Shown piece by piece: positions 1-15,476 of a stretch of 21,739 nucleotides of DNA. Position numbers and translations under genes: made by a program. The notes under the pieces are model-generated. The model was not told where the DNA came from and searched no databases. It saw nothing but the letters and a program-made list of their open reading frames with translations. Origin of the DNA: a virus; IMG/VR virus record IMGVR_UViG_3300046002_003028, positions 1 to 21,739 of that record, one strand, 5' to 3'. Position 1 is the stretch's first letter. The number at the start of each line of letters is the position of its first letter.

Positions 1-214
1 TCATGCCTTGGTTGGTGAGGTCGATGAGCCACTTAATCTGGAGCGCGGTCGGCTTCTTGCCTTGAGACTTGAACTCAAGGAAGAGGTGCTTGCCGTCGCG
101 AATGAATAGCCGGTCTGGCTGACCGCGCTGATTCATCCCGGCGAGCTTGAGCGTGATGCAGCCCTTGGTCTTCGCATACGCGCAGACTGCCTTCTCAATC
201 GTGGACTCTCTCAT
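1..214 (-). CDS. VRR-NUC family nuclease, N-terminal part (runs off left edge)
   Basis: The ATG at 214 opens a frame that stays open for 71 residues to the window edge. The visible part contains GQPDRLFI (residues 31-38), then LFLEFKSQGKKPT (44-56) and a Gln at 59. This gives the PD...ExK pattern (Asp34, Glu47, Lys49) of the VRR-NUC branch of the PD-(D/E)xK nucleases. Small stand-alone VRR-NUC proteins of about 90-130 residues are common in phage replication and recombination modules, where they are thought to cut branched or structured DNA. The start overlaps the stop of the preceding gene as ATGA, so the two are probably translationally coupled. The C-terminus is outside the window. The family call is strong; the exact substrate is unknown. 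Confidence 0.85.
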   Translation of the reverse strand, partial: MRESTIEKAVCAYAKTKGCITLKLAGMNQRGQPDRLFIRDGKHLFLEFKSQGKKPTALQIKWLIDLTNQGM

Positions 215-471
215 AGTTTGTCCTTGTAGTTGCAGATTTTAGCGTAGAACTGAGTGCGCAGGCTTGCCATTACATAGGCGTTGACTCCGTCGGTGTTGTC
301 GATGTCGGCAGCAGCCTCGCAAGCGTCGATCTCACGACCTGTCATAAGGTGGCGAACGGTTGCCAGCAGTGCGATAGCGTCTGATTGCAGATCATCACCG
401 ATTTTTTTGTATTTCTGATCCTCTTCCGAAGTCGGCATGTTGATCGTCTCTTCTGTGTCTGTGAGTGTCAT
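211..471 (-). CDS. Small acidic phage protein of unknown function
   Basis: An 86-residue protein beginning MTLTDTEETINMPTSEE. The frame is open further upstream, but that part lies inside the preceding gene and reads as a shadow. The ATG at 471 was chosen because it follows a short spacer, TACAAAACT, also found before another gene (start 6341). It has an acidic, polar N-terminus and a likely helical core (residues 28-70), with no cysteine pair, signal peptide or membrane segment. Its stop overlaps the VRR-NUC start (ATGA), which ties it to the recombination module. I do not recognise the family. Confidence 0.7.
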   Translation of the reverse strand: MTLTDTEETINMPTSEEDQKYKKIGDDLQSDAIALLATVRHLMTGREIDACEAAADIDNTDGVNAYVMASLRTQFYAKICNYKDKL

Positions 472-482
472 AGTTTTGTATG

Positions 483-1184
483 TTAGCGGCTCGAGACGAT
501 TGGTTTTTTGAATGCGCGGATGCCGGGCATAGCTACAGCAAATCCGTTGGATTCCAACTCTTTGAGAGCTGTAAGGATTGCTGCGCGTTTGAGTGTTATT
601 TCGCAAAGATCTGGCTCGGCAGCATAAAATGCCTCAATCCTCACGACCTCGAAGTCCCACGCGAACCGGATGCCGTCGGAGAGTTTGGTCGCGGCGACCT
701 CGTTGCTCGCTTGGAGCTTGTCGGCGAGAGCCTTCTTTGCGGCGATGACTGCGGCGATCCCGCCGTTCTCAGCCTCCTCCTTCGCTGCCCGAGCAGCGTC
801 GAACGCCTTGCGCTCTTCCGCCTCCTTCGCTGCCTTGATGCGCAGGACCTCCTCGGCATGGTCGCCGACGAGCTTCTTGATGCGGTTCTCCTCGGCGGTA
901 ATCTCTTCGAGGAAGTCAGCAGCGGCGGCGTCGATCATCTTGCCGATGCGGTTGACTGGCTCTTTTACGAGCTTGCGGCTCTTCTCGACCTCGATCCGCA
1001 TGGCAGCGAGTGAGCGTGTCTGGAACTGAGCGCGACCGCTCTCGTCGTTGCTTGTGACGGTCGTGATCGAGGATGCCTTCTCAATGAGCGCTGCCTTGCG
1101 AGCCTCGGCCTCTGGCGAGATGGTCAGTTGATACCCATCCCCAGCGAGGATGAGCGGAGTTATTTCGGATAGTTCGGATGTCAT
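483..1184 (-). CDS. DUF1351-like phage recombination-module protein
   Basis: A 233-residue soluble protein. Residues 25-165 are strongly helical and charged, with runs such as EEVLRIKAAKEAEERKAF that suggest a long coiled coil. The C-terminal segment has an RFAWDFEVV stretch followed by a helix and the end AMPGIRAFKKP. This layout (coiled coil, then a small domain with W-F and a closing 'PGI' strand) resembles DUF1351-type proteins that sit beside single-strand annealing proteins and SSBs in phage recombination modules. The neighbours fit: an SSB-like gene upstream and a VRR-NUC gene downstream. The start follows an A-rich leader (AACAATAACACAA) without a Shine-Dalgarno. The resemblance is by memory of the family's shape, so the call is moderate. 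The molecular role is unknown; a partner of an annealase is an inference. Confidence 0.65.
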   Translation of the reverse strand: MTSELSEITPLILAGDGYQLTISPEAEARKAALIEKASSITTVTSNDESGRAQFQTRSLAAMRIEVEKSRKLVKEPVNRIGKMIDAAAADFLEEITAEENRIKKLVGDHAEEVLRIKAAKEAEERKAFDAARAAKEEAENGGIAAVIAAKKALADKLQASNEVAATKLSDGIRFAWDFEVVRIEAFYAAEPDLCEITLKRAAILTALKELESNGFAVAMPGIRAFKKPIVSSR

Positions 1185-1189
1185 TTGTG

Positions 1190-1402
1190 TTATTGTTTGG
1201 AGAATGGTCTAGGTGGTGAGAGGTCGATGTGTCCGGTGCAGACGCAGCAGTCGATGAGCAGCGCTCGGTAGTGCTTGTGGAAGCAGGTTGGGCAATGATT
1301 GGGTTGGCAGACTCTCGCTCTGGCTTTGTGAGCGCGTTCGGCGAGTGCCTGCTTAATGGTTAGAAAGGTTGGCTGTCGGTCGGCTGGCGAGGATAGTCCC
1401 AC
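1190..1402 (-). CDS. Small putative zinc-ribbon protein (start uncertain)
   Basis: With a GTG start at 1402 this is a 70-residue protein. It holds two CxxC pairs, CPTC and CCVC, 11 residues apart (residues 37-40 and 52-55), typical spacing for a small zinc ribbon, followed by TGH. It ends 5 nt before the next start, in keeping with the tight packing of real genes here. The start is unsettled: the frame is open back to an ATG at 1507, but that would overlap the upstream gene by almost 150 nt. GTG codons at 1411 and 1402 give shorter overlaps, and no good ribosome binding site decides between them. An ATT just after the upstream stop (1357) is a rarer option. Function unknown; nucleic-acid binding is a guess. 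Confidence 0.5.
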   Translation of the reverse strand: MGLSSPADRQPTFLTIKQALAERAHKARARVCQPNHCPTCFHKHYRALLIDCCVCTGHIDLSPPRPFSKQ

Positions 1403-1830
1403 AGAAGCCACGGCAGGCGATGCAGCAGGATCGGAGGCATTCCGTCGCGGTAGGGTCGGATTGCCAGCCAGACCGCTTCCGAATCCGTTGGATCGCGCAT
1501 CACGCACAGCTCTGTCTCGAATGCGTTCGAGGCTGCGTGCCAGGTTGTCTGCTCTGGATCCGCGTTGACTGGCGTCATCGGGATCGCCTCGCCGTTCGTC
1601 CGCGACAAGCTGCGGTTCTCCTTGTGTGCTGCCTTCTCCGCGATGACTGCCGGCTGGAGTGGCGTCTTGTTGCTCACGACCAGACCGGCGCGGCGCTTTC
1701 CCGGCGGGTCGATGCGGTTGATGGCTGCTTCCAACATAGGGTCGTCAACTCCTACATAGGGTTTGCATAGGGTTTGCGTAGGTTTTGCTGCGGCTTTCTT
1801 GGCGGCGATGATTTCGGCGATGGTTGGCAT
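1360..1830 (-). CDS. Hypothetical protein of recombination/early module
   Basis: A 156-residue protein beginning MPTIAEIIAAKKAAAKP. An upstream ATG at 1905 is possible. The internal ATG at 1830 is preferred because it is preceded by ACCAACAAGACACACC, almost the same leader as the gene starting at 2859, and because the extension (FWAKLPTRHT) looks like translated leader. The N-terminal IAEIIAAKKAAAK is an amphipathic helix. The C-terminal part has WLAIRPYRDGMPPILLHRLP and several tryptophans, suggesting a small folded domain. It lies directly downstream of the SSB-like gene. I do not recognise a family. Confidence 0.65.
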   Translation of the reverse strand: MPTIAEIIAAKKAAAKPTQTLCKPYVGVDDPMLEAAINRIDPPGKRRAGLVVSNKTPLQPAVIAEKAAHKENRSLSRTNGEAIPMTPVNADPEQTTWHAASNAFETELCVMRDPTDSEAVWLAIRPYRDGMPPILLHRLPWLLWDYPRQPTDSQPF

Positions 1831-1921
1831 GGTGTGTCTTGTTGGTAGTTTCGCCCAGAATGCCCCACCCCGCGTGAGCAGGATGAGGCGTGCCATGCAA
1901 TGCACTATTTATCCAGAGAGA

Positions 1922-2611
1922 TCAATAGTCGTCCCCGATTAGGATCGCTGAGAGTTCGGTCAGAGCGGCGATGAGCGCCTTGTCCTCTGGCTTCTTGTCA
2001 GCGACCGCCTTCGGCAGCCATTTCTCGATGAGTGTCGAGACGCCTGCCTCGTCGACTTCACCGAGCTTCTTCCCCTTGTATTTGCCGACGTGGATCTCGA
2101 CCGACTCCCAGCCTTGCTCTTCGGACTTCTCCTCGGAGTCGCCAGCAGCGGCGCCATCGATCTCACGGTCGCGGATGCGCGTATATTTGCCCGACGGCTT
2201 CAGCGTGGTCTTGTCGCGGTCAGGTGCCATGAACGAGATGTTGGCGTAGGTCTTGTCGTCCTTCGTCTCGTGCTGGATGATGAGCTTGACGCCGTGACCG
2301 ATGAGCGCCTCAAGGTCAAACTCGTTGAGTTCGTTGCTGGTCAGATCGCGACCCATGAGCTTCTTCAGATCCCTGCGGAGTGCTGCCTTCTCGTTGAGGC
2401 TCGGCGTGTATCCGCGTGACCAGATGCAGAAGCGGCGGTCGTTCTCTTCGTCCATGACCTCGGTCTCGAAGACGAGCCGGAACTCATCCTTCTCGCCGTA
2501 TTGTGTCATGCGTTTTTTCAGCTCCGTAACGTCCACCAGCACGGCCTTGATCGGTCCTTCGGTTTCGGGGTGCGGGGTGAAGTTGCTGTTTTTCTTTTCG
2601 CTTAGTTTCAT
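1922..2611 (-). CDS. Phage single-stranded DNA-binding-like protein with extra C-terminal domain
   Basis: A 229-residue protein. Residues 18-135 follow the layout of phage SSB-like/DUF669-type proteins: a first strand block (KAVLVDVTEL), FRLVFETEV, a basic FCIWSRGYTPSL, a helix (LRRDLKKLMGRDL) and the phrase NEFDLEALIGHGVKLIIQH, then KTYANISFMAP. That phrase and the following 'YANI' strand are hallmarks I associate with the OB-like ssDNA-binding proteins next to phage annealases. After a linker rich in Glu and Ser (about 150-167) comes HVGKYKGKKLGEVDEAGVST and a Trp-containing helix. This resembles the small 'GKYKGK' domain seen at the end of some exonuclease-X-like and DUF3820 proteins. It probably coats ssDNA during replication or recombination. 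The two-domain fusion is the unusual part. Confidence 0.7.
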   Translation of the reverse strand: MKLSEKKNSNFTPHPETEGPIKAVLVDVTELKKRMTQYGEKDEFRLVFETEVMDEENDRRFCIWSRGYTPSLNEKAALRRDLKKLMGRDLTSNELNEFDLEALIGHGVKLIIQHETKDDKTYANISFMAPDRDKTTLKPSGKYTRIRDREIDGAAAGDSEEKSEEQGWESVEIHVGKYKGKKLGEVDEAGVSTLIEKWLPKAVADKKPEDKALIAALTELSAILIGDDY

Positions 2612-2649
2612 GTATTTTACTTGGTTTGGTTTGTTGTTATTTGGGGAGA

Positions 2650-2859
2650 TTAGTTCGGAAGCAGTCCGAGGCAGTAAGCGGCTATGATGCCGATAATGAA
2701 TCCGGTGATCGTCGCTGTGACGATGACTGGAGTGAGAGTGCGGTCAACATTTATTGACTTGCGCTGATTCATCTCGTTTAGCGTGAGCTTAGAGAGATCG
2801 TCGATGTGGAGGCGGAGGAACTTGTCTGTGCCGGGCTGGATGTCGTAGTTTTGTTTCAT
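2650..2859 (-). CDS. Small single-pass membrane protein
   Basis: A 69-residue protein with a charged, soluble N-terminal part (residues 1-42) and one hydrophobic helix near the C-terminus (TPVIVTATITGFIIGIIAAY, about 43-62). This is a tail-anchored or N-in topology. It is the first gene after the non-coding region at 2860-3060, so it is probably the first gene of the early/recombination transcript. The leader ACCAACAAGAACACC before its ATG is nearly the same as that of the gene starting at 1830. Its start also overlaps the stop of an 18-codon upstream reading frame (ATGA). Function unknown; superinfection exclusion or host membrane modification are possible. Confidence 0.65.
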   Translation of the reverse strand: MKQNYDIQPGTDKFLRLHIDDLSKLTLNEMNQRKSINVDRTLTPVIVTATITGFIIGIIAAYCLGLLPN

Positions 2860-3060
2860 GGTGTTCTTGTTGGTTTGTTAAATCGCGTTGGCGATGAGAG
2901 GAAACTAGGCATTGCCCACCAAAAAGAAAAGAACTATTTTCGTATAAATGAAAATAATTTATTTTATGGTAGAACTAAAACATCCAAAACGGATGTTTTA
3001 ATGAGTATCTACCTGCGTTTTGTAACGGGTTGGTTGCGTTTTATGCAACTATCTCGCGAC
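2860..3060 (-). promoter_or_regulatory. Non-coding control region between the late and early gene blocks
   Basis: The longest stretch without a convincing gene. It is AT-rich in its middle (about 2925-2980). It holds a perfect 10-bp inverted repeat (2976-3000), two direct copies of TGCGTTTT 21 bp apart (3014-3021 and 3035-3042) and smaller hairpins at 3033-3049 and 2882-2895. A weak promoter-like pair on the minus strand is TTGGAT, 15 bp, TAAAAT, overlapping the palindrome. That would place an operator on a promoter for the small membrane protein and SSB genes downstream. The wHTH gene lies immediately upstream and could encode the factor that binds here. The promoter itself is weakly supported. 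Confidence 0.5.
2976..3000. repeat. Perfect 10-bp inverted repeat (operator or hairpin)
   Basis: TAAAACATCC and GGATGTTTTA are exact reverse complements separated by the 5-nt loop AAAAC. The element is symmetrical, so it could act as a protein-binding palindrome. Transcribed from the minus strand it could form a hairpin ending in TTTTA, a weak terminator for the preceding wHTH gene. The stem is AT-rich for a strong terminator and is not followed by a long T run, so an operator is at least as likely. Confidence 0.65.
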
Positions 3061-3342
3061 CTAAACGAATCGGAAAATCTTTGACTGGCGACCATTAACC
3101 GAAGCCTTACGCATCGTAACAACCCCATCCGTCAGTAGTTGATTCATTTTGCGATTCAACGCGCTCTCGCCTAGCTTTTTGCCCTTACTAGCCAGTTGCT
3201 CGCTAATCTGAGCGGTAGTAAATTCATCCGGCTGGATTGGTTGAGAATTAGTGAACTGCTGCTCGATTAGTTTGTCTAGTGCGCTTAGATGATTCCTTGT
3301 GGACTGATCCAAGTCTCGCCGCCCTCTTTGGTTACTTGCCAT
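3061..3342 (-). CDS. Small winged-helix/HTH-type DNA-binding protein
   Basis: A 93-residue basic protein beginning MASNQRGRRDLDQSTRN. Residues 41-93 read as a winged helix: FTTAQISEQLA (helix), a turn (SKGKKLGES), the recognition-like helix ALNRKMNQLLTDG, then VVTMRKASVNGRQSKIFRF as the wing and closing strand. It overlaps the upstream phosphoesterase gene by 58 nt, more than any other overlap here. Its start is preceded by AGGAG about 11 nt away, one of the few Shine-Dalgarno-like sites in the window, which supports the long version. It lies next to the non-coding region at 2860-3060 and is a good candidate regulator of it, but no target is proven. Confidence 0.65.
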   Translation of the reverse strand: MASNQRGRRDLDQSTRNHLSALDKLIEQQFTNSQPIQPDEFTTAQISEQLASKGKKLGESALNRKMNQLLTDGVVTMRKASVNGRQSKIFRFV

Positions 3343-4019
3343 AATTTAGTGTCTCCTGTTTTTGTGTTGATAATGCCGTATGCAAAACCTTGCCGCCAGC
3401 CGAGCTTCGCTGTGTAGCGGTCGGCGTATTCCATCTGATCGATGTCTCCGATGCAGCCGATTGAATGACCTTCGCCTTGATCGATGTGCCTGCCTGTGTA
3501 TTGGTTCGGAGTATGAACGTGTCCATGGACGCAAGGACCATATCGCTCGAAGTGCATCTTTGCTGGATTGACTCCGCTGTGAAATCCGTGGATGAACTTC
3601 GGTCCGCCCTCTGGTAAGCGCAGGTAGTTGCCGACCTTGTAATGGATCCACTTGATCTTGCGCTTATCGAACTGTCGCTCTGCGGCTTCGGCAAGTCCCT
3701 GGCAATGTTCTCGCAGGACGCCGTTGGTAGTTGTTTGAGCCATCTGAAAAATTCGATCGTCGTGATTGCCAAGTGTTAGGTAGTTTGGCTTAAAGTCATC
3801 CAGAAAAGCGATCCCAGCGGCGAAGTCCTCAGACAATCCACCGGCTTTTTCATCTGGGCTGGCGCCTCCTCGGAGCGGTGCAAAATCCCAGTTGTCGCCG
3901 AGGTGGATGGTGTAGTGAGGTTTCCAGTCGGCTTTGAATTTCAACAGAATCCTCAATGATTCCCGATGAATTAAGCTCCCATGATTGTCAGCAGCGACGA
4001 TGAATTTCTTGAAGATCAT
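3285..4019 (-). CDS. Calcineurin-like metallophosphoesterase
   Basis: A 244-residue protein with all the metal-binding blocks of the calcineurin-like phosphoesterase family in order: DNH (Asp11, His13), HLGDNWD (Asp42, Asp45), LGNHDD (Asn85-His86-Asp87), FIHGFH (His144 or His147) and HGHVH (165-169). These residues hold two divalent metals and cleave phosphoester bonds. Phage members include lambda phosphatase (protein phosphatase) and enzymes acting on nucleic acids or cyclic nucleotides; the sequence alone does not say which applies. Its start overlaps the stop of the zincin-like gene as ATGA, so the two are co-translated. It has no signal peptide and is presumably cytoplasmic. Its place after the lysis genes is unusual for a DNA-repair role. 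Confidence 0.9.
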   Translation of the reverse strand: MIFKKFIVAADNHGSLIHRESLRILLKFKADWKPHYTIHLGDNWDFAPLRGGASPDEKAGGLSEDFAAGIAFLDDFKPNYLTLGNHDDRIFQMAQTTTNGVLREHCQGLAEAAERQFDKRKIKWIHYKVGNYLRLPEGGPKFIHGFHSGVNPAKMHFERYGPCVHGHVHTPNQYTGRHIDQGEGHSIGCIGDIDQMEYADRYTAKLGWRQGFAYGIINTKTGDTKLWQVTKEGGETWISPQGII

Positions 4020-4339
4020 ATTGGATTAAGTCTTTTGATTTTTTTCTCGAGCCGATTGATAGCCGGTTGATAGATCTCGTCCTTACATCTCACGATCTGC
4101 TCCTGTTGGTATTTCTTGCCCCAGCCGACTCCGCTCAACAAAAGACAAGCCTCGAAGATCTCATGCCTCATCGTCTCGATGAATAGCTTTTTGTTCGCGG
4201 CGACTTTGACGTCAAGATCTATGGTCTTTTTGTCGAAATGAAACTGGCCGTAGAGTTCGCCATCGAACTGTCTGACTACGATTTTGATCTTCTGACCAGC
4301 TATCGATAATGAAGTTGGGATCTTGAAGGTTCGTTTCAT
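4016..4339 (-). CDS. Zincin-like phage protein with HExxE motif
   Basis: A 107-residue protein: N-terminal beta strands (KIKIVVRQF, ELYGQFHFDKKTIDLD) then a helix ETMRHEIFEACLLLSG (residues 55-70). The HEIFE stretch (His59, Glu60, Glu63) sits where small phage zincin-like (ImmA/SprT-type) proteins have HExxH. A Glu in the second ligand place is something I recall in a subset of these phage proteins (HExxEA), so it may be a family trait rather than damage. The end (DEIYQPAINRLEKK) resembles their C-terminal helix. Whether it binds metal or cleaves protein is open. It is coupled to the phosphoesterase gene and lies 15 nt after the lysin gene. Confidence 0.6.
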   Translation of the reverse strand: MKRTFKIPTSLSIAGQKIKIVVRQFDGELYGQFHFDKKTIDLDVKVAANKKLFIETMRHEIFEACLLLSGVGWGKKYQQEQIVRCKDEIYQPAINRLEKKIKRLNPI

Positions 4340-4354
4340 GGCTTTTGATTGGCG

Positions 4355-4945
4355 CTAGGCGACTGCTTCATCGGTGAGGATGTATTCGATCCGGCGGTCG
4401 CCGATGATCTCGGCAAGGGTCTTGTCGAAGTCGATCCATTGCGATGGTGGGATCGTCTGGCAGCCCTCGGATGAGGTGCCGATGTTGCCGCCTCGATGCA
4501 GGTTGATGCCGAAGACTCCTGTCTCGGTTACAGCTACGCTGCCGTCCTGCTTGATCCGCTCGACCGTGACAGGTGCCGATCCTTGCCCGAACGCCATGTA
4601 GCCGCGCGGCGAGTTCATCTTGTGCTTGAGCCTGCGGAATGACCAGATGCCCGGCTTGAGTCGTGCCATGAACTTCCCAGCGGCTGCGTTCCATCCGTAG
4701 CGGCTCGGATCCGTGTTGGCGTTCCACGCGCTGAAATGGTCGGGGGTGACGATGAAGATCGCGTCATCGTAGATGCCGGTGTCGTTGACGCCAGGCTTGC
4801 CCATCGTGTCTCGATAGTAGGCGCGACTGGCAAAGATATAGGTCGTCGGGAACTCCTCAGCTTTTCGTCCGGATTCCTTCCATTTTCTCAGCGCAGCGAC
4901 TTCTATACGCTGACGGCTGGCTTTTGGCTTAGAGTTTGGTGTCAT
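4355..4945 (-). CDS. L,D-transpeptidase (YkuD)-fold protein, probable lysin
   Basis: A 196-residue protein. The C-terminal half has GINLHRGGNIG then TSSEGCQTIPPSQW (residues 146-170). This is the catalytic pattern of YkuD-type L,D-transpeptidases, with His150 and an SxGC motif whose Cys162 is the nucleophile. The His-to-Cys spacing (12) is shorter than the usual 16 or so. The preceding strands (DAIFIVTPD, KPGIWSFR, VTVERI) fit a beta-rich domain. No signal peptide is present, so export would need the holin. Cellular YkuD enzymes make or break peptidoglycan cross-links. In a phage lysis block the most economical reading is a peptidoglycan-cleaving endolysin. No lysozyme, amidase or CHAP gene is present elsewhere in the window, which supports this. 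Fold assignment is good; hydrolytic activity is inferred. Confidence 0.75.
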   Translation of the reverse strand: MTPNSKPKASRQRIEVAALRKWKESGRKAEEFPTTYIFASRAYYRDTMGKPGVNDTGIYDDAIFIVTPDHFSAWNANTDPSRYGWNAAAGKFMARLKPGIWSFRRLKHKMNSPRGYMAFGQGSAPVTVERIKQDGSVAVTETGVFGINLHRGGNIGTSSEGCQTIPPSQWIDFDKTLAEIIGDRRIEYILTDEAVA

Positions 4946-4948
4946 GGA

Positions 4949-5080
4949 TTACTTGGTTGCGTAGACGACGATCGCCTTGGCTGCTTCTCCGCTGAAAGAC
5001 CAGTTGCGAGTGCCGTCTGGATCCACGGTCAGGTTGCAGCTCGGCAGGAGGAGGATCAATAAAAGTAATAAAGTTTTCAT
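4949..5080 (-). CDS. Tiny lipoprotein, outer-membrane spanin candidate
   Basis: A 43-residue protein MKTLLLLLILLLPSC followed by NLTVDPDG. It has a classic lipoprotein signal: a basic start, a Leu-rich core and a lipobox LPSC with Cys15. After cleavage the mature part is only 29 residues and ends AIVVYATK. The frame is open upstream for over 90 codons, but that part is a shadow of the hydrolase gene. The ATG at 5080 overlaps the hydrolase stop as ATGA. Lipoproteins of this size inside a lysis cassette are usually o-spanins (Rz1-like) that disrupt the outer membrane, which implies a Gram-negative-type host. No i-spanin is obvious, so the assignment is a strong guess rather than proof. Confidence 0.7.
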   Translation of the reverse strand: MKTLLLLLILLLPSCNLTVDPDGTRNWSFSGEAAKAIVVYATK

Positions 5081-5685
5081 TCTGGTATCAAGATTGCCTT
5101 CGGTGGGTTCGCCCAGATGCTCAGCTCGTCCTTGACGACCTGCCAGAACTCTGGCGACTCGTCGATCTCGCTGTGACCGTAGGTGTGAAAGACGCCAGCC
5201 AGCTCGACGATCTGCGCCGGCGAGGTTGGGACGAGGTCGTGACCGTTGGGTCGATCGCGCTCTTGGCGGACGTAGACGGTCCGAGCGATCCCCTTCGGGA
5301 TCTTGATGGTGCCGCGCTTGAGCATGGCGCGGACTGAGACGGCTTGTGCGAGCGTGCAGCGAGGCAGCCATGTAGGACGATAGACTGGGTCACAGGCGAT
5401 CCATAGATCGATGTCGAGTCCGATCTCGTATGCGTAGCGAGCGAAGGCCGTGGTCGCTGCTTGCCCGTGCGAGTAGCTGAGGACTGCGACGCTGCTCAGC
5501 CGCTGCCTGCGGAGTTGATCGGCAAGAGCTTTGACGTTCGACTTCCAAGTCCGCGGTGCGTAGACGTAGATCTCGCCCGGCTTTGCGAAGGAGGAGACGA
5601 CGCGGAAGAATCCGTCCTCGAAGCCGTTGCGGTTGTCCTCGGACTCTTGGAAGCCGGAGAACGATATGATCGCTCTCTTGTTCAT
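5077..5685 (-). CDS. Alpha/beta-hydrolase (esterase/lipase-like) protein in lysis module
   Basis: A 202-residue protein from the ATG at 5685. That ATG overlaps the preceding stop as TGATG; a GTG one codon earlier is less likely. The layout fits an alpha/beta hydrolase. A first strand RAIISFSGF is followed by a region rich in Asp/Gly, YVYAPR, a helix (NVKALADQLRR) and then SSVAVLSYSHGQAATTA. This is a strand, tight turn and helix with S-x-S-x-G in place of G-x-S-x-G (Ser72 as nucleophile). The next strand, DLWIACDPVYRP, offers Asp99, and YGHSEI near the C-terminus offers His171, giving a plausible Ser-Asp-His triad in canonical order. It resembles in role the LysB-type esterases of some phages, which attack envelope lipids. 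Here the substrate is unknown. It is coupled on both sides to the holin-like and lipoprotein genes. Confidence 0.65.
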   Translation of the reverse strand: MNKRAIISFSGFQESEDNRNGFEDGFFRVVSSFAKPGEIYVYAPRTWKSNVKALADQLRRQRLSSVAVLSYSHGQAATTAFARYAYEIGLDIDLWIACDPVYRPTWLPRCTLAQAVSVRAMLKRGTIKIPKGIARTVYVRQERDRPNGHDLVPTSPAQIVELAGVFHTYGHSEIDESPEFWQVVKDELSIWANPPKAILIPE

Positions 5686-5867
5686 CACTTCCGTTTCCTT
5701 GCGAAATTGTAGAGCGTCACCAGCCCGATCGCGATACCGATCAGTCCGCCAGTAATCCGGACGCTAAATTCGAGTTGCTCTTGGAACGTGCTGATGACGC
5801 CGAGTAGGGATCCGACAGTTCCTATGGCGCCGTTGACTAGATTGTAAAGGTGGGAATGTTCGTGCAT
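5685..5867 (-). CDS. Holin-like small membrane protein
   Basis: A 60-residue protein with a His-containing N-terminus (MHEHSHLYNLV) and two hydrophobic stretches, GAIGTVGSLLGVISTF (about 13-28) and ITGGLIGIAIGLVTLY (about 38-53). They are separated by a short charged turn, and the protein ends in the basic tail NFARKRK. Two helices, small size and a basic C-terminus are typical of class II holins, which form the membrane lesion that times lysis. It lies directly before the hydrolase, lipoprotein and lysin genes. A membrane anchor for another function cannot be excluded. Confidence 0.65.
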   Translation of the reverse strand: MHEHSHLYNLVNGAIGTVGSLLGVISTFQEQLEFSVRITGGLIGIAIGLVTLYNFARKRK

Positions 5868-5870
5868 GGC

Positions 5871-5978
5871 TTATTGGAAGTTATAGAAGATGATTAAAAT
5901 AGCGAGTATTACAAGCGCGATCGATAGGGAAATCATTGAGTCTGATTGCGGTGGTCGGTATGGATACATTGGTTTCAT
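5871..5978 (-). CDS. 35-residue single-pass membrane peptide
   Basis: A short frame starting MKPMYPYRPPQSDSM, followed by a hydrophobic helix ISLSIALVILAILIIFYNF and the stop. It fits exactly between the 116-residue gene upstream (12-nt gap) and the holin-like gene downstream (3-nt gap), as expected for a real gene in a packed cassette. The Pro/Tyr-rich head and single helix suggest a membrane-inserted accessory lysis protein: an antiholin, pinholin or a very reduced i-spanin. No Shine-Dalgarno is visible. Small size keeps confidence moderate. Confidence 0.5.
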   Translation of the reverse strand: MKPMYPYRPPQSDSMISLSIALVILAILIIFYNFQ

Positions 5979-5990
5979 CGTCTGGATCGA

Positions 5991-6341
5991 TCATGGTTGC
6001 GGTGCTGGCGGATTGTCAGTTATGTCTGGAATAGGCGGGGCTGTATAGACAAACCCAGCCTGCCCTAATTCCCAGCCGCTCGGCATGGTGATTGGAACTC
6101 TGACGGTAAAACGATCATCATTGACTAGATCGAGGATAGCATTGATTGCTGTTGCTATCTGTGCGTTGAGTTGGAAGATTGCGCCTGACTTTACAAGGTC
6201 GGAGTTAAGCTCGGCTGCGACGATCTCAGGTGCGCGATTCCATACCTGCTCCCATCCCGCTTTGAGCGTGACTGCTAAATGATGAGCTGCTTCAGCCCCT
6301 TGGATTGTTACTTGATCGATTGTTGTGAGTTTTGGTATCAT
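5991..6341 (-). CDS. Small phage protein of unknown function after the tail fibre
   Basis: A 116-residue protein. Residues 10-80 look helical (VTIQGAEAAHHLAVTLKAGW, then IATAINAILDLV), followed by FTVRVPITMPSGW and a Pro-rich C-terminus ending DNPPAPQP. There is no membrane segment or signal. It begins after a spacer TACAAAACT identical to that of the gene starting at 471. Its place between the fibre and the lysis genes would suit a fibre-assembly factor or a small virion protein. I do not recognise a family. Confidence 0.65.
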   Translation of the reverse strand: MIPKLTTIDQVTIQGAEAAHHLAVTLKAGWEQVWNRAPEIVAAELNSDLVKSGAIFQLNAQIATAINAILDLVNDDRFTVRVPITMPSGWELGQAGFVYTAPPIPDITDNPPAPQP

Positions 6342-6350
6342 AGTTTTGTA

Positions 6351-9308
6351 TTAAAATTGCATTATCTTAGCATCTGATATTTGCGTTATGAATCCCGTTG
6401 GACTCCCTGACGCATTATTTACAGCAACCAGCGCGACTGCGGCATTTGCACCTGAGGCTGTTCCGCTCAAACTTGTTGATAGAGTTGCTGTATAAAAAGA
6501 AGCCGCGCCGTTTTCTTGGCTTATGTAGCCTGTTATATTGCCTGATCCATCAGTTTCAACGCTTACCATGCGATTGTATAAACTGGCGTTTCCATCTCCA
6601 AAACTAACCCAAGAACTAGCAGAGAACGTGCTGCCATCGTGTGCAAATACTCGGAAAACATGATTAGTTCCGTTACTTGTTATTTCCATTCCGAAGCCTT
6701 TTGCTGTTAATGCGTTTGAGTCAGCATTAGGATATGTATATCCCCATCCATAAAATAACCTAACCACTCCTAGAGGGTCGGATACGGTTGTCTTAAAATA
6801 TTGAAGATTTACAGATACGCCGCAACGCCTGTCATATCTGATATAATAAGCCCCGCCGATTGGTTCGTATGAAATAGTTTGGTGTGCGTATCCTGCATTA
6901 GTTGTTCCTGCATTAACTCTTAAGCCAGATGATTGTGTTACTGATGAACCAGCCCCTGAATTTGCTGAATTTCTCGATTGATAGATTGGAGAGTAAATCT
7001 TACCAATGCCGTAAAAGTCATCTGATAGTTTATCACTTGCGGTTATCAAGCTATTACTCGCAGGCGTTCCAGTTCCGCTGCTTGTAGGTCGGGTTGTGGA
7101 CGAAAATGCTTGCGCTCCTGCTATCGTGCTGCCGTTCCATGTATTCGTTCCGCCAACTGTAAGAGTTCCGCTAACTTTTGCGCTTCCAGTCACATCGAGA
7201 GCTTCGGCCGCGCTTGTGCCTCCGATAGTAACCTTAGCAGCATCGACACCAGTGCCGCCTAGTGCTATCGTATTAGATGCTGAAAAATTTGATTTGTAAC
7301 CAATCGCAGTCGAGTTGGTTGCTGTTGCAAGTGACGATCTTCCAGCAAAATACCCAATGATTGTGTTATTTGTTCCAGATGTGATGGATACTCCAGATTC
7401 TCCGCCAATACTGGTGTTACCGCTGCCAGTATCATTGCCTAAAGTATTACTTCCAATCCCTATGTTTTGGGTGAATCCTGCACTATCGGTGATATTTCTC
7501 AGCGAGTTGTATCCAATTCCTATGTTATCGCTGCCAACTTGTATTGGATAACCTGTTGCATCTCCAATCAGCATATTTCGAGAGCCAGTTGTGATCGTTC
7601 CGCCAGCGTATTGACCGAGAGCTACGTTTCTAGATCCAGTCGAAACAATGCTTAAAGTGTTAGTTCCTACTGCGAAATTAGATGTTCCTGTTGTGGTAAG
7701 AGATCCAGAATTTGTTCCAAGAAACATACTTGCAGACCCTGTTTCGTGATAAAATCGACTTCCGCCGCGATATATTTTCGTAGTGCTGCCAGTTAGTAAG
7801 TCGCTACTAACACTTAAATCTCCACTAAACGTCTTGTTGCCAGCTACTGTCTGGTTGCCCGTCAAAGCCACGTAGAGCGTATCTAGGTAGGTTTTGAGAA
7901 ACGCCTTGAGATTTGTCCCCGTAACGCGCTTGGCTGCGTTAGAATCGGCTGAATCAACGATGTTAAACGAATCGGCATCAATCGGTGTTGTCTTGCTCGA
8001 TGCGCCTGCGAACTTGCTTTGTATCCACGTCCAGATCGCCGTCAGCGTTGAGTGCTTGGGTGCGTCTGATGCTGCCGAGTCGAGGATAGCCACCTTGTCA
8101 GCGTCAACTGGAGTTGCTTTTGCCGTGGTGAAACCAAGATTGGTCACGGCTTGCAACTTGTTCGGTGCGGTCAGCGTTTGCGCTGCGTCATATCGAACGT
8201 ATCTTGCCTCAGCGACCGATTCGAGAATGTAGACAGGGCCAGCGGTCTGGGAGGCTGGAGAATTGCTGATGATATCTTCGCGCAGGATCGCTGGGGATTG
8301 GAGCGTGGTCCATGTGTCACCTGTAACTGTATCGACAACTTGAACTTCGATGGTGACGTCGGCGCGGGTTGCTCCTGAGAGAATCTCAACGACGCCTGTG
8401 GTATTGAGTGAGATCGAACCTTTTTTTCCTGTTGGAACGATCAGAGAATCAGCCGCCACAGTTAGCAGCGACACGTTGGCATAAGTCGAAAGGAAGGTGA
8501 TGGTGAAGGTCGGGAATGAACCCGTGACACTGATGCCGGTTGTGTCCACATCGGTCAGCGCGATCAAGGCAGCTTGGATTTCCTCCGCTGTTGAATCCCA
8601 AGCGAGGTCGGTGGTCTCTTCGCCATCATAGGCGAGAGTATAAACGCCATCGTAAGGAATCGGATCGAAGGTCAATTTCTGGATTTCAGAAACCCCAACC
8701 GATCCAGCCCGAACGGTGGTGACGGCGGCGGCTGCAACGGGCAGATCATCGGTCAACTCGACATAAGCCGCTGGTTGGGTCTCCATGCGGATCACGACGA
8801 CTTCCTGCACGGACGCCGATCCTGTTTGAGCGACGGCGATGAATGAGGTCGATGTCGGGTATAGTGCTGTGCTGTTCGTGGTGATTGCCGTCCGAACTCC
8901 AACAGCGGTGAACACGATGCGATAAGATCCACCTGCTGCGGATGTCACGGAGACGCCACCTGCTGAGATGATACTGGCAAGAAGATTTAGAGCTGCCGAG
9001 ACTGTGGCAGCAGAAGCATCGAAAGCCAGAGCGGTTGTGGTGTTCGCGCCATAGGTCAGTGTGAATGTGCCAGCGGTCGGGTAACTGCCAGGAGTGCCGA
9101 TTGCAACGTGAACTTCTTGGTTGGTCAGATCAATGTCTGCCCAAGGTCTTTCAGCAGATCCGCTCGGCTGAACAAGTCGGCAAGTGATCGGAGTCAGGTC
9201 GCCGAATACGAAGCTCGGTGTGTTTCCGTTCTGGGTTGTGGAGTTGAAACCCGATAGGAGCTGTCCCGTCTGGGTGTTAATGATTAGATCTAAGGAACGC
9301 GCCGCCAT
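6351..9308 (-). CDS. Tail fibre / receptor-binding protein with YadA-like head repeats
   Basis: A 985-residue modular fibre. Residues 1-70 probably attach to the virion. Residues 80-136 and 221-285 are two diverged copies of one repeat (TFTLTYGANTTTALAFDASA versus VYTLAYDGEETTDLAWDSTA). Residues 399-433 and 441-480 are a second pair (TPVDADKVAILDSA versus TPIDADSFNIVDSA), typical of phage fibre shafts. Residues 530-700 are YadA/Hia-type head repeats with N-x-x-(I/L)-G turns (NVALGQYAG, NMLIGDATG, NIGIGYNSL, NTIIGYFAG), expected to form a trimeric left-handed beta roll. Residues 760-985 are rich in aromatic residues, Gly and Ser and look like a beta-sandwich tip that would bind the receptor. 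The last 1.5 kb is visibly more AT-rich than the first, suggesting a swapped tip. The start follows a TTGAAA box 19 nt upstream. Confidence 0.85.
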   Translation of the reverse strand: MAARSLDLIINTQTGQLLSGFNSTTQNGNTPSFVFGDLTPITCRLVQPSGSAERPWADIDLTNQEVHVAIGTPGSYPTAGTFTLTYGANTTTALAFDASAATVSAALNLLASIISAGGVSVTSAAGGSYRIVFTAVGVRTAITTNSTALYPTSTSFIAVAQTGSASVQEVVVIRMETQPAAYVELTDDLPVAAAAVTTVRAGSVGVSEIQKLTFDPIPYDGVYTLAYDGEETTDLAWDSTAEEIQAALIALTDVDTTGISVTGSFPTFTITFLSTYANVSLLTVAADSLIVPTGKKGSISLNTTGVVEILSGATRADVTIEVQVVDTVTGDTWTTLQSPAILREDIISNSPASQTAGPVYILESVAEARYVRYDAAQTLTAPNKLQAVTNLGFTTAKATPVDADKVAILDSAASDAPKHSTLTAIWTWIQSKFAGASSKTTPIDADSFNIVDSADSNAAKRVTGTNLKAFLKTYLDTLYVALTGNQTVAGNKTFSGDLSVSSDLLTGSTTKIYRGGSRFYHETGSASMFLGTNSGSLTTTGTSNFAVGTNTLSIVSTGSRNVALGQYAGGTITTGSRNMLIGDATGYPIQVGSDNIGIGYNSLRNITDSAGFTQNIGIGSNTLGNDTGSGNTSIGGESGVSITSGTNNTIIGYFAGRSSLATATNSTAIGYKSNFSASNTIALGGTGVDAAKVTIGGTSAAEALDVTGSAKVSGTLTVGGTNTWNGSTIAGAQAFSSTTRPTSSGTGTPASNSLITASDKLSDDFYGIGKIYSPIYQSRNSANSGAGSSVTQSSGLRVNAGTTNAGYAHQTISYEPIGGAYYIRYDRRCGVSVNLQYFKTTVSDPLGVVRLFYGWGYTYPNADSNALTAKGFGMEITSNGTNHVFRVFAHDGSTFSASSWVSFGDGNASLYNRMVSVETDGSGNITGYISQENGAASFYTATLSTSLSGTASGANAAVALVAVNNASGSPTGFITQISDAKIMQF

Positions 9309-9360
9309 ACAAAGACGAGCGTTTCAACTTTGATCTTATTGTCCATCAACGAGATAAATA

Positions 9361-10011
9361 TCAAGGAGTAGGCTCGTAAGTGGCACTTCCGCCAACTGGC
9401 CATATATCATCAACTATGTATTGTTTTAATACAGAAGCAATGTTTTCTACTGAGTCCCAACCAACGCTTGCCAATGGTATGGCGAAATTACGGGCGGTTG
9501 GGGTATTATTTTGGGGGGAATAAACTGATGGTGCATCAGTCGAAAAAATAACTTCTGGAGTTCCGCTAAAACCATCTCTTTCGCTCCAAAATGGAATACC
9601 AGATGCGCCTGTATCATTCAAAACTAATATTTGTGCAATGTCACAAAGAGCATACACGTAACCCGTAGCTGTAATTGTTAAATCATCAACCCCATCAAAC
9701 TCTAATGGGAAAGCGGTATAATTAAGAGGATCGCCAGCGTAGCCCGTGCCATTGTTGCGATAAGTCCACATATTTCCGCTCAATACCGTAATCGTATTGC
9801 CTCCATTAGCTATACATTTCCACGGGTGAGTTGGGATGGGTGGGATGGTTACAGTTTTATTTTTTTGAAGATTGATCAATGTCCCGCTGTGGGTGTGGGT
9901 GATCTGCATGTTCGGACCGCGAACCATCTGGCGATGGAGTTGATCGAGCAAGCGAGGATCACCGGGGACGCCAGCTTGAGGGAATGCGTTGCCTTTGCGG
10001 TGCGGGTTCAT
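9361..10011 (-). CDS. Probable tail or baseplate protein
   Basis: A 216-residue protein, the last before the fibre gene. The first 35 residues are polar, with HRKGNAFPQAGVPGDPRLLD. The rest is a mix of beta strands rich in Asn, Thr, Gly and aromatics (NTITVLSGNMWTYRN, DDLTITATGYVYALCDI), typical of virion-surface domains. It begins 3 nt after the preceding stop. A further 52 nt separate its end from the fibre start. A role as distal tail protein or fibre adaptor is inferred from position. The region is also AT-rich compared with the tape measure and head genes. Confidence 0.65.
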   Translation of the reverse strand: MNPHRKGNAFPQAGVPGDPRLLDQLHRQMVRGPNMQITHTHSGTLINLQKNKTVTIPPIPTHPWKCIANGGNTITVLSGNMWTYRNNGTGYAGDPLNYTAFPLEFDGVDDLTITATGYVYALCDIAQILVLNDTGASGIPFWSERDGFSGTPEVIFSTDAPSVYSPQNNTPTARNFAIPLASVGWDSVENIASVLKQYIVDDIWPVGGSATYEPTP

Positions 10012-10014
10012 GGT

Positions 10015-10686
10015 TTAAGGATAGAGAATGGTTGAGAATCCGTTCGGGCCGCTGCCCATGATCTGCTCGGTGACTTGGTAAAAGTTCCCGATTTGCCGGT
10101 ATGGATAATCGAGAATCAAGAACTCCTTGCAATCGGATGGTTTCCTAAACCCCGGAATTGTGGTGATGCGCTTCATCCTCTTGTTGAGCAATGGCACAGT
10201 CTTCGTCCAATAAGTCCTAGAAAGTAAAGTGGCAGGTGTGAGGTAATACATCACGCCAAAAAGGTTTTTTATGGCTGGATCGAAGAATCCAAGGAATTCC
10301 CCAGTGTCCTCGTCAAAGGTCGCACCGTTGGATGGATTTTCAGATGTCCCTGCAAACGATTCAAATTGCGGATGAGATGTGATCGGTTCTTGGTTTGTGT
10401 TCGGGGTGTAACTGATGATTGCCTCGGTTGTGTTTGCAACGAGTCCGAAATAAGAACCCGTCATCTGGATACGATCCAGAGTCAGATAGGTGATCTCGCG
10501 GTTGTAGAGTTCGCAGCGATAATCCGTTGGGTGTGCGCTGCCCATTTGTGGGAGGTTACTAAGCCCACTGCTGTCACAAATGAAAACAACCTGACCCTCG
10601 ATCGTGCCATCGTTTTTTTCAGTGAGTGAGAAACCCGGTTGGATAGCGTAACTACTGCCGAGACTGCCTTTGATTTTGATTGCCAT
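10015..10686 (-). CDS. Probable minor tail protein
   Basis: A 223-residue protein starting MAIKIKGSLGSSYAIQPGFS, 3 nt after the tape-measure stop. It is beta-rich with little charge clustering; features include TDYRCELYNREITYLTLDRI and a C-terminal KEFLILDYPYRQIGNFYQV. The position directly after the tape measure is that of distal-tail or minor tail proteins in siphoviruses. I do not recognise a family from the sequence alone. Confidence 0.65.
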   Translation of the reverse strand: MAIKIKGSLGSSYAIQPGFSLTEKNDGTIEGQVVFICDSSGLSNLPQMGSAHPTDYRCELYNREITYLTLDRIQMTGSYFGLVANTTEAIISYTPNTNQEPITSHPQFESFAGTSENPSNGATFDEDTGEFLGFFDPAIKNLFGVMYYLTPATLLSRTYWTKTVPLLNKRMKRITTIPGFRKPSDCKEFLILDYPYRQIGNFYQVTEQIMGSGPNGFSTILYP

Positions 10687-10689
10687 GAT

Positions 10690-12381
10690 TTAGATTGGGT
10701 CAGGGATTTTTATGCCGCCACCTTCTGCGCGTGCAGTGTTGCGAGCGATAACTTCAAGGAGGGAGATTTGACGGTCGATTTTCTGAGTTCCTGCTGCGAG
10801 GATGTTTGCGCTGCCGCCACCACCGATAGATGCGAGTGAGCTTGTCGAAAGTGTTGGGAGGACGTTTTCTTTTTGGTCCGCCAAAATGCCAGCAATCTCT
10901 GATCCCTTGTCACGAGCCTCCATTCGAAGGTTGATCTTGTCCTCTTCGGTTTTTGCTTTCTGGGCTTTTTTCAAAAGGTCTGACTGCTCTTTTGCGAGCA
11001 TCGCGACCTTTTCCTCATCTGTCTTGAGTCCTTCAAATTTAACGTCACGGATCTGCTTTTCCTCATCCTTGCGTAGTTCGGCGAGTTCTTCCGTTTTCTT
11101 TGCTTCCTTCTCCTTGGCTTTTTCTGCAAGGTCTTTGGCTTTTTTATTTGCTGTCTCTTGAGTTTTTTCTTGATCCTCGCGAAGTTTTTTTAGCTCCTTC
11201 TCAGTTTCAAGCATTTCCTTTTGAGCCTCTAAGGATTGGTTGCCGACTGTCTTGTAAGCCTTTTTGCGCATCTCTTCGCTTTTTGTTTCCAAAGCGAGGA
11301 TTTTCTCGGCGAGTTTGAGTTCATTGAAAGCTGCGTCCTCTTTGAGTTTTGCGATTTCCTCTGCGAGTTTCTTTCTGTCTTCTTCTGTTTTTTCTGCAAT
11401 TTTGGAACGCTCTTCCTCTTGCTGCGCCATTTCAGCAAGCATTTCAACATCGGCAGATGATCCCTTTTCCCCAGTCTTGCCGCCAGCCAGCGCGTAGTCC
11501 AAATCTGACACAAAACCATAAGCGTTCTCAACAATCTGATCGAATGAGGTTTTAAAATTCTTTTTTAGATTGTTGATTCCTTGTGCTGCTCCTTGAAAAT
11601 CGCCAGTAAAAAGTTTTTTCATAATTGAAGCGCTTTCCATTGAGCTATCGGCTAACAGGGAAAATGCCTCCATCCATCCGCGAATGCTGAAATTGAGCAA
11701 TGCGCCAATTCCTTTTCCTAACATATCAAAGAACTGGAAAATATATCCACCAAGCACCATTGATTTTTGCTTCAAATCATCCATGCCATCACCGAATTGC
11801 TCGATGGTAGCAACTGTTGATTCTGAAAGAACGCTGGTGTTCTTCATCTGCTCTTGAAGCTCTTCAAATCCCTGAGATAAAAGAGGTATCATTTCAGCGC
11901 CAGATTTACCAAGGACCTGCATCATCTGCGCGAGGTTTTGTCCGCTGCCTTTGCCGTTATCCATCGCTTTTGCGAGGGTGAGAAGTTTGTCTTCGATCGG
12001 CATGTTCACGAAGCTAGAAACATCGATGCCGAGGGCCGCGAATGCTTCAGCCATAGATCCGCCCTGTGATGCTGCTGTGTTGGCGTTTTTTGTGACGATT
12101 GTCATCGCCTTGGCAACTCCTTCCAGATCAGAGCCGGCTTGTTGGGCGGCGGCCCCTACGCGCTGGATCGATTCAGCGGATTCACCAAAGCGAGTCGCGA
12201 GATCTGAGATGCGGCTGAAATACTCAACAACAGTTTTAAGTCCTGTGAGAATAGTTCCAACGCCAATCGCGCCGGCAAGCATTCCTTTCACGCTGCCAGC
12301 AAAAGCCTTGGTCTGTGTGCGCATGTCATCCAGCCCTTTGCGGAATGGTGTCGTGTCTGCTCCAAATACCCATTTCATCAT
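10690..12381 (-). CDS. Tail tape measure protein
   Basis: A 563-residue protein. The N-terminal WVFGADTTPFRKGLDDM (residues 4-20) is the usual 'D-x-x-x-F-x-x-G-L' entry of tape measure proteins. Residues 31-48 and 209-232 are hydrophobic. Residues 60-175 contain RFGESAESIQRVGAAAQQ and GIDVSSFVNMPIEDKLLTLA, both typical of phage tail tape measures. Residues 310-490 are a long Glu/Lys-rich coiled coil (EEERSKIAEKTEEDRKKLAE). The end has SLLEVIARNTARAEGGG. It sets tail length and is ejected with the DNA. At this size the tail would be rather short. The start overlaps the previous stop (ATGA). Confidence 0.9.
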   Translation of the reverse strand: MMKWVFGADTTPFRKGLDDMRTQTKAFAGSVKGMLAGAIGVGTILTGLKTVVEYFSRISDLATRFGESAESIQRVGAAAQQAGSDLEGVAKAMTIVTKNANTAASQGGSMAEAFAALGIDVSSFVNMPIEDKLLTLAKAMDNGKGSGQNLAQMMQVLGKSGAEMIPLLSQGFEELQEQMKNTSVLSESTVATIEQFGDGMDDLKQKSMVLGGYIFQFFDMLGKGIGALLNFSIRGWMEAFSLLADSSMESASIMKKLFTGDFQGAAQGINNLKKNFKTSFDQIVENAYGFVSDLDYALAGGKTGEKGSSADVEMLAEMAQQEEERSKIAEKTEEDRKKLAEEIAKLKEDAAFNELKLAEKILALETKSEEMRKKAYKTVGNQSLEAQKEMLETEKELKKLREDQEKTQETANKKAKDLAEKAKEKEAKKTEELAELRKDEEKQIRDVKFEGLKTDEEKVAMLAKEQSDLLKKAQKAKTEEDKINLRMEARDKGSEIAGILADQKENVLPTLSTSSLASIGGGGSANILAAGTQKIDRQISLLEVIARNTARAEGGGIKIPDPI

Positions 12382-13043
12382 ATCGAGTTTGCCTTTCCTT
12401 TAATGTTCGTTTTCCAGTGATCGAATGAGCCTTGGACAAATTCCTCTGGAAGATCTGCTTTGAAAATTTCCATTGCCTCTTCGTCGGTGAGTTCTGAGAG
12501 ATCGATTTCGGAATCGTCGAGATCCGCGTCGTCCAAGAATCGGAGTTGGATGCCCTCAAGCTGGGCGAATTGAACATCCATCCAAAGAGCTTTACCGAGC
12601 GAACTATTCCACGCGTCATGCTCATTGACGCCGCCACGATACATGAGAGAGCAAGCGAGACCAAGGCAGCGCGGACCGCTTTCGATTCCTTTGGTGACGC
12701 CCCCGGTGTTTCCTCCTCGATAGAATCGCGGTGGGCTGCATTGCATCGACATCCAAGCATAGAACTTTGATGCCTCTTCCCTGAATCTCTTTTTGTTGCG
12801 AGTTAGCTTTAGGCGCCAGAATACGTCTTTGATCGTCGGCTTGATTTGTTGCTCACCATATTTCAAGCCACAAACCCGAACCGCCAGAAGCAGATCGGGA
12901 ATGCTGATGTTTGGTCCGCCAAGTGCGACAGGTGAATTGATCGACGATAAGACTAGATGATGCCAGAGAGTGAAGGTTTGCAGATTGCGGCCACAAACCT
13001 TTACTTCTGGAGCAAGATACGAGTGATAGAATCGATCATCCAC
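12378..13043 (-). CDS. Putative tail assembly chaperone-like protein
   Basis: A 221-residue protein with a GTG start at 13043, 4 nt after the preceding stop. Its N-terminal half contains LQTFTLWHHLVLSSINSPVA and SIPDLLLAVRVCG, a pattern of helices I associate with tail assembly chaperones, and the middle is basic. Residues 165-205 are strongly acidic (LDDADLDDSEIDLSELTDEE). Its position just before the tape measure is where siphovirus chaperones sit. No slippery site with a second -1 frame is evident, so a G/GT-type frameshift is not supported. Function rests mainly on position. Confidence 0.55.
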   Translation of the reverse strand: MDDRFYHSYLAPEVKVCGRNLQTFTLWHHLVLSSINSPVALGGPNISIPDLLLAVRVCGLKYGEQQIKPTIKDVFWRLKLTRNKKRFREEASKFYAWMSMQCSPPRFYRGGNTGGVTKGIESGPRCLGLACSLMYRGGVNEHDAWNSSLGKALWMDVQFAQLEGIQLRFLDDADLDDSEIDLSELTDEEAMEIFKADLPEEFVQGSFDHWKTNIKGKANSI

Positions 13044-13047
13044 TTGG

Positions 13048-13398
13048 TTAAGCGTAGCTTACGTATTCGGATTTTTTGATTGCGTAGGTCAGAGTGACAA
13101 AACCTTGGTTTTGCTCTTCGCGACCTTCTGAAATGATTTCGAATGCGACGCTGTTGTAGGTGTAGTTGGCACCGGGAACGAGAGCAGTGAATCCAGAACG
13201 GGGACGGATGGTCAATGTGCCTTCTGCGTGAAGGTCATCATATCTGCGCTCGATCTCGTTGCCGATTTCGTTTGCAGTTTCTGCGACGTTCTTGTTCGAA
13301 GAATTGAGCGACCAAGAGATGACGGTTGCGTTGGCGACGATAGCTACGCCGCCGACGATTCCGTATAAGTGAGCTGTGCCTTTAGTGGTGAGTGCCAT
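13048..13398 (-). CDS. Candidate major tail (tube) protein
   Basis: A 116-residue beta-rich protein starting MALTTKGTAHLYGIVGGVAI. It has strands such as ATVISWSLNSSN, AEGTLTIRPRSG and QGFVTLTYAIKKSEY, and no membrane or cysteine features. Its size, beta content and position (after the tail terminator candidate and before the chaperone and tape measure) fit a small tail-tube protein. No other gene here suits that essential role better. The leader before the ATG is A-rich (AACAATAAAAAATT) with no Shine-Dalgarno, as before the capsid gene; highly expressed virion genes may share that type of leader. Confidence 0.6.
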   Translation of the reverse strand: MALTTKGTAHLYGIVGGVAIVANATVISWSLNSSNKNVAETANEIGNEIERRYDDLHAEGTLTIRPRSGFTALVPGANYTYNSVAFEIISEGREEQNQGFVTLTYAIKKSEYVSYA

Positions 13399-13404
13399 AA
13401 TTTT

Positions 13405-13602
13405 TTATTGTTTAGATTTGGAGACTTTTGCGGGTTGATAACCATCGATCACGACACAACCGTCCTTCGGTTCGGCTGATACAGGCACATCTTTGAAAAC
13501 GAGTTTTCCATCGTCGTCGTGAAGATCTGCTTTGCCGTCTTTAGGCTCCACGTTGCGAAAGTGATGCTTGTGACCTGCTGGGTGAAAATAGACTGCGTCC
13601 AT
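13405..13602 (-). CDS. Small phage protein of unknown function
   Basis: A 65-residue protein starting MDAVYFHPAGHKHHFRNV, with four His in the first 15 residues, then charged short strands (KADLHDDDGKLVFKDVPVS) and a Lys-rich end. It lies between the tail terminator candidate and the tube candidate. The start follows a TTGAAA box 19 nt upstream, shared with three other genes. The His-rich head could bind metal, but nothing shows it does. No family is recognised. Confidence 0.6.
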   Translation of the reverse strand: MDAVYFHPAGHKHHFRNVEPKDGKADLHDDDGKLVFKDVPVSAEPKDGCVVIDGYQPAKVSKSKQ

Positions 13603-13621
13603 ACAAGACGCTGGATTTCAA

Positions 13622-15170: not shown

Positions 15171-15195
15171 ATAATTTGGCTGGTTTCAACACATA

Positions 15196-15471: not shown

Positions 15472-15476
15472 TCAGA

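Follow-up and report, generated by a model that had tools for sequence, protein, structure and literature searches.

The stretch of viral DNA analysed here (hereafter, the window) spans 21,739 nucleotides, positions 1 to 21,739 of the IMG/VR record IMGVR_UViG_3300046002_003028. Its minus strand carries a tightly packed block of five small genes, flanked on one side by a tail-fibre region (6351-9308 and 5991-6341) and on the other by a metallophosphoesterase (3285-4019). The block opens with a 35-aa peptide with a single transmembrane (TM) segment (MKPMYPYRPPQSDSMISLSIALVILAILIIFYNFQ; 5871-5978), followed by a 60-aa holin-like protein with two TM helices by hydropathy and an RKRK C-terminus (5685-5867), a 203-aa alpha/beta-hydrolase (5077-5688), a 43-aa lipoprotein recognized in translation by its LPSC lipobox (4949-5080) and a 196-aa protein of the YkuD fold, a putative endolysin (4355-4945). 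The last four had been predicted to be coupled genes of a lysis cassette, and the arrangement agrees: all four open reading frames are present on the minus strand, the hydrolase gene overlaps the holin-like gene (5685-5688) and the lipoprotein gene (5077-5080) by 4 bases each, and a gap of 3 bases (4946-4948) separates the lipoprotein gene from the YkuD-like gene. The gene for the 35-aa peptide, which lies 3 bases ahead of the holin-like gene and is conserved with in-frame indels in relatives (L004/L013 and L005), was overlooked in that original prediction. When homologues of the cassette in other contigs are compared, changes fall in excess at third codon positions; among the closer pairs, dN/dS ranges from 0.06 to 0.26 in the hydrolase and from 0.08 to 0.13 in the YkuD-like gene. 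The holin-like, hydrolase, lipoprotein and YkuD-like genes are kept in three further contigs (L005, L013 and L014), as far as these reach, with mostly synonymous changes. We conclude that these four are genuine, coupled genes maintained by purifying selection, and the case for reading the block as a lysis cassette, as originally proposed, is strong.

A second contig, IMGVR_UViG_3300044991_000781 (32,058 bases), is 100% identical to the window, with window positions 7119-21731 mapping to its start and 1-7245 to its end. Since the same 127 bases stand at both of its ends, we read it as a complete, circularly assembled genome of ~31.9 kb, the part of which outside the window encodes a primase, a helicase, a DNA methylase and small genes. 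Across nearly the full protein set of this genome, Pfam detected no other lysin, and direct searches of the complete genome for Amidase_2, Amidase_3, Phage_lysozyme, CHAP and M15_4 were negative. No endolysin of the usual types was thus found, in line with the original claim, and the YkuD-like protein is the sole lysin candidate in the complete genome. Under simple hydropathy and motif rules, used in place of a dedicated predictor, the 43-aa gene is the only lipobox reading frame in the six frames of the complete genome, and the same genome yields no i-spanin, defined as an N-terminal TM segment plus a periplasmic coil.

Pfam, NCBIfam and PHROGs provide no named match for the cassette proteins except one: the YkuD-like protein matches phrog_3000 (E 8e-12), a family annotated as 'unknown function'. 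This protein resembles no Pfam family up to E 1, including YkuD itself (PF03734), and a sequence search of the PDB returned nothing for it or for the hydrolase. Motif and structure nevertheless agree with the YkuD fold that had been proposed for it. His150, Ser159, Gly161 and Cys162, the residues of the YkuD active-site motif, are invariant across 30 diverse relatives, and the phrog_3000 family keeps the pattern H-x-x-G...S-x-G-C. The AF2 model (pLDDT 89) displays the YkuD beta-fold, with the 1,3-L,D-transpeptidase LDTGo (8qzg) as its best Foldseek match (probability 1.00, E 2.9e-3, TM ~0.5, 12% identity) and Csd6 (4xzz) as the second; a viral model in BFVD named 'Lysin' also matches (E 2.5e-8). 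The arginine of the transpeptidases, which we take to lie two residues beyond the cysteine as in the motif SHGC-hR, is missing: this position is Thr or Val in all 30 relatives and never Arg. A YkuD-fold hydrolase from E. coli, DpaA, has likewise been described without a conserved active-site arginine (PMC12729407). Like DpaA and Csd6, an L,D-carboxypeptidase of H. pylori, the phage protein would employ a Cys/His YkuD active site for hydrolysis; unlike them, it lacks a signal peptide, is expected to be released by a holin and belongs to a separate sequence family.

The genomic surroundings of this family point in the same direction. In two related contigs (L019 and L020), a gene for a 73-aa TM protein and then a portal-like gene come after the YkuD gene. 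In L007, an Amidase_3 gene precedes a homologous 65-aa TM gene (51% identity) and the same type of portal-like gene; YkuD thus takes the place of Amidase_3 in related genomes. In L026, the gene that follows YkuD encodes a 227-aa TM protein and, embedded within it, a proline-rich lipoprotein, an arrangement that resembles Rz/Rz1. The five classical lysin families have no match in 18 other YkuD phage records, some of which are possibly fragments. Being the only lysin in its operon and replaceable by other lysins, the YkuD-like protein is, on the strength of these comparisons, very probably an endolysin. Its motif, fold, genome position and missing transpeptidase arginine are the reasons for regarding it as a peptidoglycan hydrolase. 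A lysin of this kind is not new in itself, as the PhaLP database already lists 10 phage lytic proteins annotated as YkuD, a rare catalytic class there (PMC8310338). Those entries match PF03734, PF10908 or cd16913, in contrast to the present family, which matches no Pfam model; phrog_3000 would gain a probable function as a family of YkuD-type lysins.

The 203-aa protein that precedes the lipoprotein was predicted to be an alpha/beta-hydrolase, and its AF2 model, of moderate confidence (pLDDT 79), has this topology. Neither of the two findings that would have counted against the original prediction, another fold for the hydrolase or a better-partnered lysin elsewhere in the genome, turned up. 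The best Foldseek match is the lipase LipA of B. subtilis (E 5e-5, TM ~0.5), with thioesterases also among the matches. The predicted nucleophile, Ser73 in a Y-S-x-G motif, occupies the elbow between a strand (64-72) and a helix (75-88), as the hydrolase fold would have it. Ser73, Asp100 and His172, a putative catalytic triad, are invariant among relatives, as is His150. Asp100 sits after the strand following the nucleophile helix, and the usual position of the acid, after the next strand, is not conserved; the identity of the acid is therefore uncertain. No Pfam or NCBIfam model matches the hydrolase, nor does any PHROGs family at a useful E-value; a hit to Peptidase_M74 (E 0.1) was judged to be due to chance. 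Relatives are encoded at 28 loci in viral contigs, while tblastn against 50,697 deposited phage records and a scan of genome contigs found none, and a profile search of 388 Verrucomicrobiota genomes gave one distant match. This near-absence from genome searches makes the family look mainly viral.

Outside the clade of the window, 16 viral records encode the hydrolase on the same strand as a lysin and 0-1.2 kb upstream of it, and that lysin may be an Amidase_3 (L007, L096, L098), an Amidase_2 (L094, L095, L099, L100, L101), a CHAP or TIGR02594 protein (L008, L009, L010, L011, L092), an M15_4 peptidase (L090, L097) or a distant YkuD (L102). In three pairs of records, closely similar hydrolases adjoin different lysins: Amidase_3 versus M15_4 in L096 and L097 (hydrolases 91% identical), CHAP versus Amidase_2 in L092 and L094 (91%) and TIGR02594 versus CHAP in L010 and L011 (87%). 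As far as these sequence comparisons reach, the lysin has recently been exchanged beside a retained hydrolase, and the position next to the lysin persists even where hydrolases have diverged to 36% identity. One record (L091) has the hydrolase with no recognizable lysin adjoining it, and another contig (L093) ends before the lysin position can be judged. No recognizable lysin stands near three distant relatives (L103, L104 and L106; 26-29% identity), the first of which is found among tail genes, suggesting a second role or a second origin. Two further distant relatives (L105 and, in a genome from the Verrucomicrobiota search, L187) stand beside genes for a long lipoprotein and TM-coil proteins, with no recognizable lysin.

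The original prediction had singled out the combination of an esterase with a YkuD lysin. Of the gene-neighbourhood survey it proposed, the adjacency of hydrolase and lysin came through and the conserved pairing with YkuD did not: the hydrolase accompanies four other lysin classes, 22 YkuD phage records outside the clade of the window contain no match to it, and the two occur together only in that clade and in L102. Most YkuD phages do without the hydrolase, and on this neighbourhood evidence we reject the notion of a specific pair.

A contig with a YkuD protein 85% identical to that of the window (L015) holds in the corresponding slot an unrelated hydrolase (1163-1786; motifs FVHGF and GHSDG), which overlaps the YkuD gene by 4 bases. 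Homology between the two hydrolases is unsupported (hhalign probability 2%). In Shewanella phage S0112, a relative of the L015 hydrolase directly precedes a gene annotated 'putative endolysin', and a scan of the viral contigs with the L015 protein matched L015 alone. The window and L015 proteins share a C-terminal tail of the PKAILI type, which may be a recombination joint.

Several observations bear on the host. A contig from a Verrucomicrobia metagenome-assembled genome (L148), likely a prophage or phage contig, shows the same gene order of YkuD, a homologue of the 107-aa gene (dn107) and a phosphoesterase of 55% identity. Among isolated phages, Verrucomicrobia phage P8625 gives the best E-value for the terminase, and seven proteins match this phage in the same order. 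Judging from such similarities, the host, read as a diderm, is most likely a member of the Verrucomicrobiota. In the corresponding region of P8625 (NC_029047 19556-20797) there is a 53-aa gene with two TM segments and no recognizable lysin.

The remaining products of the cassette are small. The 60-aa holin-like protein has no family match at a useful E-value in Pfam, NCBIfam or PHROGs; homologues are found near the lysin in L005, L013 and L011, and several YkuD phages, L038 and L047 among them, have weakly similar ones (E of roughly 1e-4 to 1e-3). The 35-aa peptide could be part of the same holin system. Cleavage at the LPSC lipobox would leave the lipoprotein with a mature part of 29 aa that starts with CNLT. 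It carries the lipobox expected of an o-spanin, with no linked i-spanin gene seen in the hydropathy scan of the complete genome, and belongs to a family (C-xx-[ST]-[VI]-xx-DG) that is also encoded beside YkuD genes in L018, L028, L030 and L102. The last of these combines the hydrolase, a tiny lipoprotein of the same type (CTMTISADGSKSFSIDG...) and the distant YkuD with a TM-plus-coil protein that, together with a lipoprotein, is a possible spanin pair. A strict replacement of spanins by the hydrolase is rejected, given that L102 and others have both the hydrolase and possible spanin genes. Similar to the lambda cassette of holin, endolysin and Rz/Rz1, the present operon unites a small membrane protein, a lysin and a lipoprotein; it differs in its extra hydrolase, in the absence of a detected i-spanin and in a lipoprotein that is very short and not proline-rich.

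Retention of the hydrolase while the lysin is exchanged argues that its target is independent of the peptidoglycan bond that the lysin cuts. An alpha/beta-hydrolase beside a peptidoglycan lysin in a lysis operon is a known arrangement: it is that of mycobacteriophage LysB, a mycolyl-arabinogalactan esterase, with which the proposed removal of the outermost barrier would also be shared. The phage hydrolase, of 203 aa, shows no sequence relation to LysB in the family searches; LysB is absent from its best 50 fold matches in the PDB, and the host evidence points to the Verrucomicrobiota, probably without mycolates. The hydrolase cannot be called LysB, which it resembles in position and fold class only. 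That it is a lysis protein we consider quite probable; that it acts in the manner of LysB on an ester of the outer layer is our best guess by analogy, held with a slight leaning.

In a simplified view, then, the block would be the lysis operon of a ~32 kb siphovirus-like phage that deploys a holin, a YkuD endolysin and a LysB-like third lysis enzyme against a non-mycolate diderm, a reading that we favour with reasonable though limited confidence. The 60-aa protein, perhaps with the 35-aa peptide, would act as the holin that permeabilizes the inner membrane. Because neither enzyme has a signal peptide, both presumably stay cytoplasmic until the holin holes let them out. The endolysin would use Cys162 and His150 to hydrolyse stem-peptide bonds of the peptidoglycan instead of cross-linking them. 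After holin triggering, the alpha/beta-hydrolase would cleave an ester or thioester in the outer layer, possibly in outer-membrane lipids, lipoprotein acyl chains or an acylated polymer, and so remove the last barrier. The 43-aa lipoprotein may serve as an orphan o-spanin-like helper or as a link to the outer membrane. A broader generalization, that alpha/beta-hydrolases released by holins form a class of their own, without relation to LysB and kept while the lysin changes, which opens the outer membrane of non-mycolate diderms, is offered as a tentative idea with somewhat less than even prospects.

Other explanations of the two enzymes deserve consideration. The hydrolase might belong to the tail-fibre module and serve during infection as a depolymerase or de-acylase of the virion, adjoining the lysin only because fibre and lysis genes are neighbours. 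It does often come directly after tail-fibre genes, for example after a 110-aa gene in L011, and the relative in L103 lies between the tape measure and fibre genes. We nonetheless find this account unlikely, considering the 4-base overlaps of the window gene with both the holin-like and the lipoprotein genes, the overlap of the unrelated hydrolase with YkuD in L015, the order of hydrolase, 36-aa TM gene and amidase in L007 and the lipoprotein and TM-coil companions in L105 and L187. The constant adjacency of the hydrolase to a wall lysin would suit an esterase that strips O-acyl groups from peptidoglycan or another polymer so that the lysin can cut, although amidases and peptidases, whose chemistries are unrelated, are among its partner lysins and the closest folds are a lipase and thioesterases, making such a role rather improbable. 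Absence from most YkuD phages would fit an accessory gene with no part in lysis, serving for instance superinfection exclusion or lipid metabolism, which the late operon tolerates; purifying selection, the lysin-side position kept down to 36% identity and the presence of a different hydrolase in the L015 slot leave this reading with little credit.

As for the lysin, proteins of the YkuD type are best known as transpeptidases, and the top PDB match, LDTGo, is one. The phage protein could accordingly remodel peptidoglycan or lipoproteins, with lysis left to some unrecognized protein. This we hold to be improbable: the complete genome offers no other recognizable lysin, YkuD takes the place of an amidase, the arginine two residues beyond the cysteine is missing and Rz/Rz1-like neighbours occur in L026. 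LDTGo is a bacterial cross-linking enzyme, at TM ~0.5 and 12% identity. It is the closest solved fold, and an enzyme of its type also cleaves stem peptides, with notable endopeptidase activity in vitro (PMC10864386).

What is new here is a hydrolase kept beside interchangeable lysins, rather than the esterase-YkuD pair in which novelty had been sought; the open-access literature contains no description that we could find of an esterase in a non-mycolate lysis cassette or of a hydrolase beside interchangeable lysins in phages of non-mycolate diderms. A 2018 survey of spanins reported that about 13% of the phage genomes it covered have no identifiable spanin, leaving the breakage of the outer membrane in these phages an open question (PMC6139136). 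A hydrolase family found beside five unrelated lysin types is a testable candidate for an enzymatic route through this membrane, and its retention suggests an overlooked enzymatic step in the bursting of outer-membrane bacteria. If this is true, outer-membrane-opening hydrolases would offer one explanation of how phages that lack recognizable spanins pass the last barrier.

Membrane-anchored proteins that look cupin-like by eye, an unusual component for a lysis block, are also encoded beside the lysin in several hydrolase-bearing records (L100, 9151-9795; L095, 8408-9217; L010, 9855-10472). Dozens of viral contigs encode the YkuD-like family itself, and genomes of Verrucomicrobia, Bacteroidetes, Alphaproteobacteria and others contain relatives. 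A further relative is gp76 of Bdellovibrio phage phi1422 (44812-45345; L195), annotated as hypothetical, whose alignment covers 71% of the query at 39% identity; this similarity makes it a candidate endolysin of that phage.
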